A DNA stretch of 64,000 nt from Thermobispora bispora DSM 43833 (GTDB lineage: Bacteria; Actinomycetota; Actinomycetes; Streptosporangiales; Streptosporangiaceae): the NCBI RefSeq assembly GCF_000092645.1, contig NC_014165.1, positions 992,001-1,056,000 on the forward strand. The letters are read 5' to 3'. Below the pieces are notes generated by a model. It was not told where the DNA came from and did no database searches. It saw only the letters and a program-made list of their open reading frames with translations. Below are positions 5,926 to 28,477 of the stretch, piece after piece (within the stretch, counting starts at the first letter, position 1; each line of letters starts with the position of its first letter). The position numbers were made by a program, and so were the translations under genes.

Positions 5926-7941
5926 ATGAGCGAGCGAAGCGAGCTGGACGCCCTCCGGGAGGCGCTGGCCCAGGCCGTACAGCAGGCATCCCAGGCCGCC
6001 GAACTGGCCCGGCTGCTCACGGACTATCAGCGCAGGCTCGACGAGGCCGCCCGGGCCGAGGCCGAGGCGGTCACCCGGATGCGCCAGGCCGAGGCACGGC
6101 TCAAGGCCGTGGAGCGGCAGAACGCCACGCTCGCCAAGAACCTCGCCGAGCAGCGGTACCAGACCGCGGTGGCGAACTGGAAGCTCGCCTCGCTGCGGGA
6201 GAGCCGCTGGTCCAAGCTCGGCGACGCCCTGCACTCCAAGAACCCGGGCAAGCTGGCCCAGACCCTCCGGGCGCCGGTGAAGAAGCCCCCGGCGCCCAAG
6301 CGCTCGGACTTCCCGCCGGAGCTCCCCAAGATCCCCGAGCCGGCGGTGACCCCGGCCGCCCCCGACCCGAAGGCCCCGCAGGTCTCCACGCCGATGGCGG
6401 ACGGCTTCACCGTGCCCAAGGGCCCGACCGCCCGGCCGTACCTCACCGTGGCGGCGATCGTCGACCGGCAGACCGAGGCGCTGCTGCGGTACGAGTGGCG
6501 GCTGGTCACCGACTTCGGCCTGGAGAACTGGGAGGAGATGCTCGAGCGGCGCCGGCCGCACCTGCTCCTCGCCGAGTCCGTACGGCCCGGCCCCCGCCAG
6601 GGCAACGGCGGGCGCTGGCTCGAGGCGCTCGCCGGGGAGTCCCGCGCGCTCCGCGACCTGATCGCCGCCTGCCGCAAGCGGGGCATCCGGACCGTGTTCT
6701 GGCACTCGGGCGGGCCGGTGTCCCGCGCGGTGCCCGCCGCCGAGCACTTCGACCACGTGCTCACCTACTCCGAGGCGCGGGCCCGGGAGTGGCGGTCCGC
6801 CTTGCGCCACGACCGGGTGGGGGTCCTGCCGTACGCGATCCAGCCGCGGGTGCACAACCCGATCCCCGCGATCGGCGGCCGCACCGAGGAGATCATGACC
6901 CTCGGCACGGTCGCCGTGCCCGCCGAGGGCGACGGCGCCGCGGACCAGGCCGGCCGGGTCTGGCGGCCCATGCCCGGGCAGGGCGACGAGAAGATCACCT
7001 ACGACGACCTGCTCACCGCCTACCGGAGGCCCGCCCTCGTCGTGGCCGGCCCCGACGCCGACGAGCGGGCGGTCGCCGAGATCTCCGCGTGCGGCACGCC
7101 CGTGCTCCGGATGCGCAAGGGGGCGGGGCCGGAGGAGACCGCCGCCGCGGCCGAGGCCCTCCTGGCCGACCGGGAGCGGCTCGCCCGGGAGGCGCACCTC
7201 GCCTGGCGGGCGGCCACCCGGGTGACCCCGCTGCTCGACCCGATCCTCGACGTCCTCGGCATCCCGAGCGTGCGGGGCGCGGACCGGATCACCGTGATCA
7301 GCGCGGTGCGCACCCCGGAGGAGCTCGAGCACCTCGCCGCCCAGGTCGCCCGGCAGGCTCACCGGCCCGGGCAGCTCGTCGTGGTCGCCGAGGGCCTCGA
7401 CGCCGCCCTGGTGGAGAAGACCGTCCGCCACGCCGTGGAGCTCGACGACCTGGTGGTCCGGGTCTCCGGCACCCCGATCACCCGTGGCGCCGCCCTCGAC
7501 CGCGCGGCCCGGCTCGCCGACGGCGACCACGTGGCGGTGTTCGACCCCCGGGACGTGTACGGCGAGCACTACCTGGCCGACCTGGCCGGGTACTTCGCCG
7601 TGGCCGACGCCGAGGTGATCGGCAAGGCCTCGTTCTACGCCCACCTGCCGGGGACCGGCGCCACGCTGCTCCGCCAGCCGGGCGCCGAGCACCGCTTCCT
7701 GCCCGAGGTCGCCGGGGGCACGCTGCTCGCCCGCCGCCAGACGATCACCGACCTCGGGTTCGCCGACGTCTCCGAGGAGTGGGGCGAGGTCTTCATGCGG
7801 CAGTGCCGTACCGACGGGGTGCGGGTCTACTCGGCCGACCGGTACTCGTACGTGTGCGTCCGCGAGTCCGCGGAGGGGGAGCTGCTCGGCTCGGCCCGCC
7901 TGGAGGGGTACGTGCCCGCCGAGCCGCTCGCCCTGATCTGA
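5926..7941 (+). CDS. coiled-coil protein with glycosyltransferase-like C-terminal region
   Basis: A 671-residue protein. Residues 1-90 are a charged Ala/Glu/Arg heptad-type coiled coil, and 100-160 form a Pro/Lys-rich hinge. From about 165 (RPYLTVAAIVDRQTEALLRYEW) there is a Rossmann-like region resembling CgeB/GT-B transferases, including LLLAESVR, GIRTVFWHSGGPVS and a second alpha/beta half with ISACGTPVLRM. A further segment (about 450-640) resembles a GT2-type nucleotide-sugar domain: ITVISAVRTPEELEHLAAQV, VAVFDPRDVYGEHYLADL. It has no signal peptide and is predicted cytoplasmic. The ATG has no Shine-Dalgarno, and its first codons (MSERSE) belong to a GAGCGA-rich element also seen at 27609. 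It is divergent from the asparagine-synthetase-like gene with a shared 226-base upstream region. The acceptor and sugar are unknown. Confidence 0.75.
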   Translation: MSERSELDALREALAQAVQQASQAAELARLLTDYQRRLDEAARAEAEAVTRMRQAEARLKAVERQNATLAKNLAEQRYQTAVANWKLASLRESRWSKLGDALHSKNPGKLAQTLRAPVKKPPAPKRSDFPPELPKIPEPAVTPAAPDPKAPQVSTPMADGFTVPKGPTARPYLTVAAIVDRQTEALLRYEWRLVTDFGLENWEEMLERRRPHLLLAESVRPGPRQGNGGRWLEALAGESRALRDLIAACRKRGIRTVFWHSGGPVSRAVPAAEHFDHVLTYSEARAREWRSALRHDRVGVLPYAIQPRVHNPIPAIGGRTEEIMTLGTVAVPAEGDGAADQAGRVWRPMPGQGDEKITYDDLLTAYRRPALVVAGPDADERAVAEISACGTPVLRMRKGAGPEETAAAAEALLADRERLAREAHLAWRAATRVTPLLDPILDVLGIPSVRGADRITVISAVRTPEELEHLAAQVARQAHRPGQLVVVAEGLDAALVEKTVRHAVELDDLVVRVSGTPITRGAALDRAARLADGDHVAVFDPRDVYGEHYLADLAGYFAVADAEVIGKASFYAHLPGTGATLLRQPGAEHRFLPEVAGGTLLARRQTITDLGFADVSEEWGEVFMRQCRTDGVRVYSADRYSYVCVRESAEGELLGSARLEGYVPAEPLALI

Positions 7942-26848: not shown

Positions 26849-27271
26849 ATGCAGCCCAACGACGTGCGCGTGCTCAAGGGTGCCGCCGTGCCGACCTTGG
26901 CCGTCGGGCTGGTCATCACGATCATCGCGGGGGCGATGGCCGGGGTCAAAGGGGCGCTGGGCGCCGGCATCGGCGTCGTCCTCGTGGCGGCCTTCTTCAC
27001 GGTGGGACTCGCCGTGGTCTCCTGGGCGGGCCGCATCTCCCCGGTGGCGATGATGGTGGCCGCCATACTCGGCTACGCCATCAAAGTGATCGTCGTCATG
27101 GCGATCCTGAGCGCTTTCGCGGAGACCACCGCCTTCAATTCCCGGGTTTTCGCCCTCACCGCGATCGCGTGCACGCTGACGTGGACTGTGGGCGAAATGT
27201 ACGGGTTTTTGAGGCTGAAGAAGCTTTACGTGGAACCCGATGTCGAAATTCCGGGGCGGGGGCGCGGATGA
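26849..27271 (+). CDS. atpI: ATP synthase protein I
   Basis: A 140-residue membrane protein with four predicted helices (VPTLAVGLVITIIAGAMAGV, GIGVVLVAAFFTVGLAVVSW, MMVAAILGYAIKVIVVMAIL, FALTAIACTLTWTVGEMYG). The ending LKKLYVEPD closely resembles streptomycete AtpI (KILYVEPE). AtpI assists assembly of the c-ring. The ATG at 26849 has only a weak GGAG upstream. It is the first gene of the operon. Confidence 0.85.
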   Translation: MQPNDVRVLKGAAVPTLAVGLVITIIAGAMAGVKGALGAGIGVVLVAAFFTVGLAVVSWAGRISPVAMMVAAILGYAIKVIVVMAILSAFAETTAFNSRVFALTAIACTLTWTVGEMYGFLRLKKLYVEPDVEIPGRGRG

Positions 27272-27327
27272 GCGAGTCCTCGAGGGGCAGCCCGATATGA
27301 CTAGTATCCTCTGCTCCTGCTATCGTC

Positions 27328-27552
27328 ATGCCCGCGATGAGCGAACAAGAGCGCAGGCCGGAGACCCACGGCCGCGACTTCGCCGACGTCATGTGGTCGG
27401 TCCCCAGCTACCTGCTCTCGGGGATCCTGGTCTGGGGTGGCATCGGCTGGTTGCTGAGCCGTTGGACCGGTCTGCAGGTGCTCACTCCCATCGGCGTCGT
27501 CGTCGGGGTCGTGCTCGCGGGCTATCTCGTCTATGTGAAGTACGGCCGCTGA
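27328..27552 (+). CDS. AtpZ/AtpI-family small membrane protein
   Basis: A 74-residue protein with a hydrophilic N-terminus (SEQERRPETHGRDFADVM) and two helices (VPSYLLSGILVWGGIGWLL and TPIGVVVGVVLAGYLVYV), the shape of AtpZ-family proteins. The second methionine at 27337 could be the true start; neither has a Shine-Dalgarno. A TAGTAT at 27303-27308 could drive a transcript starting just upstream. It lies between atpI and the atpB leader ORF, so it probably takes part in ATP synthase assembly or ion transport for it. Confidence 0.8.
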   Translation: MPAMSEQERRPETHGRDFADVMWSVPSYLLSGILVWGGIGWLLSRWTGLQVLTPIGVVVGVVLAGYLVYVKYGR

Positions 27553-27608
27553 GACCGGCCCGCTGCCCACGCTCTTCTCTGTTGACGATCACTCTGAAGG
27601 GGACGCCC

Positions 27609-27689
27609 GTGCGCGAGCAAAGCGAACGGACGAACAAGCACACGCTCCGGGCACCCGGCCCAGAGCTGGTAGGCGAGGTGGTCCAGTGA
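27609..27689 (+). CDS. 26-codon leader peptide overlapping the atpB start
   Basis: A short ORF (begins MREQSERTNKH, ends LVGEVVQ) starts at GTG 27609 with AAGGGGA eight bases upstream, a better ribosome-binding site than atpB itself has. Its TGA stop overlaps the atpB GTG as GTGA, the layout of translational coupling. The SERTN part matches an element found at the start of the gene at 5926. It is likely translated; whether the peptide does anything is unknown. Confidence 0.6.
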   Translation: MREQSERTNKHTLRAPGPELVGEVVQ

Positions 27690-28477
27690 CCCTGCTGACG
27701 CTGCCGGCCGCAGACCGCTTCGAGGCCCCCGGTCCGTCCATCTTCGACTTCCCTCCGCTCTTCGAGGGCGCGCCGTACTGGCTGACCAAGCCGGTCGTGA
27801 GCGCGATCCTCGGCGCCCTCATCGTGTGCGCGCTGGCGTGGAGCGCCTTCGCCAAGCCGCAGCTCGTGCCGCGCGGCATGCAGAACATCGGCGAGAAGGG
27901 CTATGAGTTCGTCCGCGATCAGGTGGCCAAGCCGTTCCTCGGCAAGGACACCGATCGCTTCATGCCCCTGCTCCTGTCGGTGTTCTTCCTGATCCTGCTG
28001 TGGAACCTGTTCGGCGTGATCCCGCTGATCCAGTTCCCGGTCGCGTCGCACATCGCGTTCCCGGCGGTCTTCGCGCTCACGATCTACGTCGTGAAGATCT
28101 ACCTGGGCATCAAGCACCAGGGGCTGATCGGCTACTTCCGGAACATGATGTTCCCGCCCGGGCTGCCCAAGCCGATCTACATCCTGCTCGCGCCGATCGA
28201 GCTCCTGTCGAACATGATCATCGCGCCGTTCACCCACGCCGTCCGGCTCTTCGCGAACATGTTCGCCGGCCACCTCATCCTGGCCTTCTTCAGCCTGGTG
28301 GGCTTCTGGTTCCTGTTCGAGAAGCTCACCCCGCTCGGCGCTCCGGTGGGCGTGATCGGCGTGGTCATGACGATCGCGATGACCGGCCTGGAGATCTTCA
28401 TTCAGTTCCTGCAGGCGTTCCTGTTCACCCTGCTGGCCGCCATGTACATCGGCAGCTCGCTCCACCCGGACCACTGA
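27686..28477 (+). CDS. atpB: F1Fo ATP synthase subunit a
   Basis: Proton half-channel of Fo, 263 residues with five to six membrane helices. The essential arginine is in HAVRLFANMFAGH, and the C-terminal helix contains LEIFIQFLQAFLFTLLAAMYIG. The GTG start overlaps the stop of the leader ORF and lacks its own Shine-Dalgarno, so its translation probably depends on ribosomes finishing that ORF. Confidence 0.96.
   Translation: MTLLTLPAADRFEAPGPSIFDFPPLFEGAPYWLTKPVVSAILGALIVCALAWSAFAKPQLVPRGMQNIGEKGYEFVRDQVAKPFLGKDTDRFMPLLLSVFFLILLWNLFGVIPLIQFPVASHIAFPAVFALTIYVVKIYLGIKHQGLIGYFRNMMFPPGLPKPIYILLAPIELLSNMIIAPFTHAVRLFANMFAGHLILAFFSLVGFWFLFEKLTPLGAPVGVIGVVMTIAMTGLEIFIQFLQAFLFTLLAAMYIGSSLHPDH

Follow-up and report, generated by a model that had tools for sequence, protein, structure and literature searches.

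The site at which the MIRUs of mycobacteria insert is named DTGA. MIRUs (Supply et al. 1997, via PMC12548453, PMC4213456, and PMC2734929) are elements of 40-100 bp that occupy 41 sites in the genome of M. tuberculosis H37Rv (PMC2734929), with units of 77 and 53 bp between senX3 and regX3 (PMC4213456). According to a 2025 review, they appear to be mobile, insert at start codons, and carry an internal ORF that is coupled to the gene at -4 nt (PMC12548453). Two other known arrangements bear on the locus described here. Termination-reinitiation coupling has in common with it the RTGA overlap and the internal Shine-Dalgarno, but here the upstream partner appears to be a dispersed short ORF and not a gene. 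Attenuator leaders of the trp/his type are likewise short ORFs that precede a gene of a biosynthetic or core operon, but the leaders found here have no run of a regulatory codon, and neither a terminator nor an antiterminator was found. The initial annotation knew of no leader peptide described at this position. This held in the literature that we searched, as far as the texts were accessible (PMC11133741 among them), which gave no description of an atpB leader of this kind or of such elements outside mycobacteria, and no match to "SERSERT". Yet leaders of such a kind are described, namely the mycobacterial MIRUs.

We analyzed a window of 64,000 nucleotides from Thermobispora bispora DSM 43833, the whole genome being one contig of 4,189,976 bases. 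A 26-codon GTG ORF had been reported in front of atpB at 27609-27689, with its stop overlapping the atpB start in GTGA. The observation was confirmed: the ORF exists exactly as reported, and the overlap lies at 27686-27689. The features of the locus are as follows.

27328..27552, plus strand: ORF of an AtpZ/AtpI-type small membrane protein, upstream neighbor (weak assignment: PF09527 scored 21.7 bits, the curated cut-off being 26.6)
27596..27602, plus strand: GAAGGGG, ribosome-binding site starting the leader (duplex -7.2 kcal/mol); its homologue serves atpB directly in most leaderless relatives (110 loci)
27609..27689, plus strand: leader ORF, 26 codons and TGA, GTG start, VREQSERTNKHTLRAPGPELVGEVVQ* (from the ORF list; kept in 29/29 leader-bearing rows)
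27609..27685, plus strand: putative inserted segment, an MxERSERT-type element separating the ancestral ribosome site from the start of atpB (77 nt = 3L-1 with L = 26; from occupied versus empty sites)
27609..27632, plus strand: conserved element head, codons 1-8, VREQSERT here and VRERSERT in most relatives
27675..27680, plus strand: GAGGTG, ribosome-binding site of atpB, within the last codons of the leader (duplex -8.0 kcal/mol)
27686..27689, plus strand: GTGA, leader stop and atpB start, a 4-nt overlap read directly from the sequence
27686..28477, plus strand: atpB, F-ATPase subunit a, 263 aa (PF00119, E = 2.2e-56)

The two marks of a coupled upstream ORF, a stop/start overlap and a ribosome site ahead of the atpB start, were both found. 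The leader had also been credited with a better Shine-Dalgarno than atpB. This was not the case, the duplex energies with ACCUCCUU favoring atpB in this genome as listed above and in each of 24 relatives listed, where the leader site had -4.6 and the atpB site -7.2 to -8.1 kcal/mol. The idea that subunit a is made only once the leader is completed was not supported either, since the leader contains a strong GAGGTG site belonging to atpB itself, and since 78 of the 107 atpB rows compared are leaderless. The frame of the leader is open for 130 codons upstream in this genome, and 22 of 27 leaders listed are preceded, at a distance of 8-23 codons, by a stop in the same frame. A longer ORF at 27240-27689 (149 aa) was rejected, its upstream part not being conserved in most relatives. 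On the minus strand, a single terminator-like hairpin was seen at 27352-27370, within the atpZ-like ORF.

We then compared atpB loci. The 165 loci with an atpB match gave 108 distinct upstream sequences, 27 of which had the leader by a strict motif; one more (L025), missed by the motif, was added by eye. Distance to the head motif was bimodal over 102 rows, with 24 at 0-3 mismatches and 78 at 7 or more. In the set of 107 rows, the leader was present in 29 and absent from 78. This set takes each stretch of 1200 bases once and covers loci in which the atpB match begins no later than residue 60 and has at least 560 bases after it and at least 150 before it. Carriers that could be named were Microbispora and Planotetraspora, while Nonomuraea, Actinomadura, Herbidospora, Streptosporangium, Microtetraspora, and others were leaderless. 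Loss of frame in close relatives, one of the outcomes that would have refuted the initial annotation by its own account, was not seen: in all 29 leader-bearing rows the ORF was intact and ended in GTGA or ATGA on atpB with a 4-nt overlap, at lengths of 16, 26, 27, or 28 codons. Separately, the second atpB loci of Planotetraspora and Microbispora (L071, L073, L083, L087, L107) were leaderless, and several of them had a repeated GTACGCCGTAC-like palindrome upstream, possibly an operator.

These data bear on the possibility that the leader is a chance ORF without function, of which only the DNA is conserved. As a matter of fact, simulated neutral leaders remained open in 0.76-0.94 per lineage, and pN/pS exceeded 1 in the middle codons, as such an ORF would have it. 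A stop-free frame by itself is thus weak evidence. Four lengths all in register are stronger evidence, and the fact that the stop always fell in register over atpB argues against a chance ORF, which we regard as very improbable.

Codons 1, 2, 3, 5, and 7 of the head were invariant among the six distinct head sequences, and codons 1-8 showed no variation within Microbispora or within Planotetraspora. Over codons 2-8, five of seven changes were at third positions and pN/pS was 0.15, a value that comes from few changes. Over the whole leader or codons 9-26, in contrast, pN/pS was ~1.4-1.6, and codons beyond 8 seem to be free of amino-acid selection. It may be that the head plays a part in initiation, at the peptide or the DNA level. 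In codon-aligned comparisons, divergence of the leader middle was 0.060 in Microbispora versus 0.282 at fourfold sites of atpB. The corresponding values in Planotetraspora were 0.212 versus 0.242, so a conserved middle is not a general feature.

The initial annotation suggested that the leader could set Fo stoichiometry or respond to the translation state. A reading of this sort is a true regulatory peptide, an attenuation or stalling sensor tuning subunit a to the translational or metabolic state. The place of the leader directly before atpB and the near invariance of the first eight codons would suit such a role. However, the RNA fold was not beyond that of shuffled sequences (z = +1.22), there was no Rfam family, and the scan for terminators gave no terminator-like site on the plus strand; on these three grounds an attenuator, a riboswitch, and a structured RNA were rejected. 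Neither a run of one regulatory codon nor amino-acid selection on the middle codons was apparent, and the same head stands before trpC and before lipA-, hemA-, and panC-like genes, which have nothing in common. A sensor thus appears improbable. In addition, no Pfam domain was found in the leader up to E = 1. Of the proposed coupling to atpB, the conserved short ORF stands, arranged as coupling would require and with its frame kept wherever the leader occurs; exclusive dependence and the sensor role are not supported.

Leaderless loci were instructive as to the origin of the leader. In most of them the atpB start region read "gaagggaacgccgcGTG", whereas leader-bearing loci read "gaagggaacgcc(c/a)GTGCGCGAG...GTGA" (110 loci). 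In other words, the atpB start directly follows "gaagggaacgccgc" in the leaderless majority, and in carriers the same "gaagggaacgcc" precedes the leader GTG. This points to the insertion of ~77 nt between the old ribosome site and atpB. It should be said that the automatic alignment paired the leaderless ribosome site with the atpB site inside the leader; homology to the leader's site was read from the upstream sequences. The left junction at atpB is GTGC, not GTGA, and no clean 4-bp duplication was seen. On a tree of the 107 rows (1323 columns), the trait required at least five changes, four of them forced by starred branches, as compared with ~26 in shuffles. All atpB leaders have CGC as second codon, which is rare elsewhere among the elements described below. 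Either repeated insertion at atpB or one insertion followed by losses or transfer may account for this pattern.

A related leader precedes trpC in the same genome. It lies outside the window (G000:C1:1640660-1640719; L338, L389), encodes VSERTGIPRRRRPTGEEGA* in 19 codons, and is of the SERT type. It spans 60 nt including the stop, is preceded by "gaccggaggga", and ends in GTGA over the trpC start; its peptide has no Trp codon. Among 42 trpC loci read, a SER-type overlapping leader was found in 21 by the strict motif, and a few others had shorter or altered leaders, such as VSEPSEEIK. The trpC site was empty in six loci of other genera (L227, L233, L234, L241, L247, L345), with the ribosome site 17 nt before the start. 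Hence, occupied and empty forms of a start-codon site, as known from MIRUs, were found at both atpB and trpC.

Within the 4.19-Mb genome itself, the relaxed head motif matched once, at atpB, and its reversed control not at all. A 22-base head with up to two mismatches likewise found the atpB copy only (one match in the reversed control), so that a repeat in this genome was rejected. This single occurrence was first counted against a repeat, and the element class surfaced on searching other genomes. The coding pattern for MRERSERT gave 25 matches in 341 genomes of the family, 24 before atpB and one before trpC, and none in 296 other genomes spread over the phylum. The more general head RTGVGCGAGCGNAGCGARCGNAC, in which the second residue is S, G, or R, gave at least 44 matches in 100 family genomes. 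The head with S as second residue matched in 16 of 345 genomes of the class, some with 10-11 copies. None of these three patterns matched in reversed controls, including that of the 296 genomes. Elsewhere, single genomes had 13 matches (G099) or 11 (G912), whereas by the patterns used the T. bispora genome has one SERSERT-type and one SERT-type copy, and not many. Collectively, these matches suggest an element class dispersed in Streptosporangiaceae and some other Actinomycetes.

The loci read contained 107 distinct matches, of which 84 were ORFs with the 4-nt overlap, 15 were in-frame fusions with a long ORF, 5 ran off the stretch, and 3 were other. The short ORFs of 10-40 codons numbered 86, including about 22 atpB and 6 trpC copies, and 78 of them had a 4-nt overlap with a downstream ORF of 80 aa or more, as MIRU ORFs overlap the next start and as all 29 atpB rows do. 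Among control short ORFs in the same loci, 883 of 5792 (15%) did so (Fisher p = 4e-53). As named from sequence and not by family search, the downstream genes were trpC-, lipA-, hemA-, panC-, ilvN-, and nuoK-like, along with regulators and transporters. We also used a frame-free pattern, GTGAGCGAGCGNAC-gap-GAGG-gap-RTGA, which matched in 24 of 150 family genomes and not in reversed controls. Among the 25 distinct matches read, 22 had spans that were multiples of 3 (p = 2e-8 versus 1/3), although the 25 are not all independent, since they include several trpC leaders from genomes that are related. This excess of in-frame matches speaks again against a chance ORF. All 22 were short ORFs with the 4-nt overlap, two of them overlapping onto a second leader.

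Eight groups of copies before different genes of one genome were compared past codon 8. Five of them (G857, G912, G099, G575, and G871/G737) showed a resemblance, with an identity of 0.61-0.79 as against 0.23-0.46 in the flanks; some groups pool two or three genomes. The other three groups showed a weaker resemblance (0.59, 0.41, 0.32). Tandem pairs in other genomes were spaced by 80, 80, 80, 77, and 72 nt, the first four fitting 3L-1 and the last being an in-frame fusion. Most units measured 68-83 nt, with outliers from 41 to 143, so that the 77 nt at atpB and most of the class lie within the 40-100 bp of MIRUs. The pattern leaves the third position after SERT free; 7 of the 11 distinct atpB heads had a His there, as did 18 of the 32 elements preceding other genes and none of the 13 preceding trpC.

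An alternative to insertion is that the upstream ORF arose de novo: a start would have drifted in after the ribosome site, a duplicated site would have moved atpB downstream, and the likeness to the elements would reflect a G+C-rich, initiation-friendly head. Overlapping short ORFs are indeed common in G+C-rich DNA, as the control short ORFs above illustrate, and translational coupling is described as widespread (PMC12548453). The lack of reversed-control matches to the head motif, the frequency of His at residue 11 beyond what the pattern demands, and the equal site geometry at trpC nevertheless make such an origin unlikely.

Insertion is the reading that we prefer: the atpB leader is probably a degenerate copy, now fixed, of a start-codon element that occurs dispersed, and it would hand ribosomes to atpB and not act as a sensor. 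The initial interpretation is thereby partly supported, having moved from a regulatory leader to a fixed, MIRU-like insertion at a start codon. What the sequences show is the anatomy, the conservation, the occupied and empty sites at atpB and trpC, and the dispersed copies; translation of the leader, reinitiation, mobility, and any effect on atpB output are inferred from them. A unit of 50-85 nt with a short ORF of its own sits between the ribosome site and the start codon of a gene, the junction being RTGA. What was the gene's ribosome site would now serve the ORF of the element. The last codons of this ORF contain another Shine-Dalgarno, and its stop overlaps the former start as RTGA. Ribosomes ending at the leader TGA would reinitiate on the overlapping atpB GTG, and fresh ribosomes would presumably also load directly at the internal GAGGTG. 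The net result would be a near-neutral insertion after which atpB stays translated, its level being perhaps adjusted.

Some observations stand against this explanation. The T. bispora genome has two copies, so mobility is not visible here. A single insertion without losses or transfer does not explain the five or more changes on the tree. To these are added the missing clean duplication at atpB, the three groups that are less alike past codon 8, the fused (15), other (3), and open (5) cases among the 107 matches, and the trpC leaders devoid of His.

As regards MIRUs, both they and the elements found here are short, lie scattered between genes, have an ORF coupled at -4 nt, and occur in tandem copies. 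By our own calculation, the MIRU lengths of 77 and 53 follow the arithmetic of the present elements, being 3x26-1 and 3x18-1. The latter differ in that they are found in Streptosporangiaceae and some other Actinomycetes and have a conserved MSERSERT head; moreover, atpB has a single fixed copy instead of a variable tandem array. Judging by anatomy, the elements would function in the manner of MIRUs. We do not count them among the MIRUs, given that the likeness is one of anatomy and that T. bispora itself shows two copies only.

A bolder view, which we put forward tentatively and consider doubtful, is that these elements belong to a superfamily of start-codon-targeting mobile mini-ORFs with an MSERSERT head outside Mycobacterium, moved in trans by a machinery recognizing RTGA. 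The head would be an initiation enhancer or a nascent-chain signal, and the atpB and trpC copies would be domesticated, subunit a being made via a ribosome relay. If the preferred reading of a start-codon insertion is right, hand-over elements inserting at start codons would not be a mycobacterial oddity but would occur, with a recognizable head, in several actinomycete families, and some copies would have stayed for long in evolution in front of atpB, trpC, and similar core genes. Occupied and empty sites of one operon would then be natural experiments on termination-reinitiation, and an explanation would be at hand for a class of small ORFs that gene finders may pass over or take for odd N-termini.

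Finally, sequences like the element head were noticed at the start of long ORFs. In the window, a gene start at 5926-5946, ATGAGCGAGCGAAGCGAGCTG (MSERSEL...), looks like an element head fused to a long ORF that is open for 506 aa. Members of one family of long ORFs, each from a different genome (L249, L301, L309), begin in frame with MSERSERTxDxA, the head being fused into the gene. In two further long ORFs (L260, L261), the N-terminus consists of ERSERT blocks in series, which looks like an in-frame fusion of several heads.
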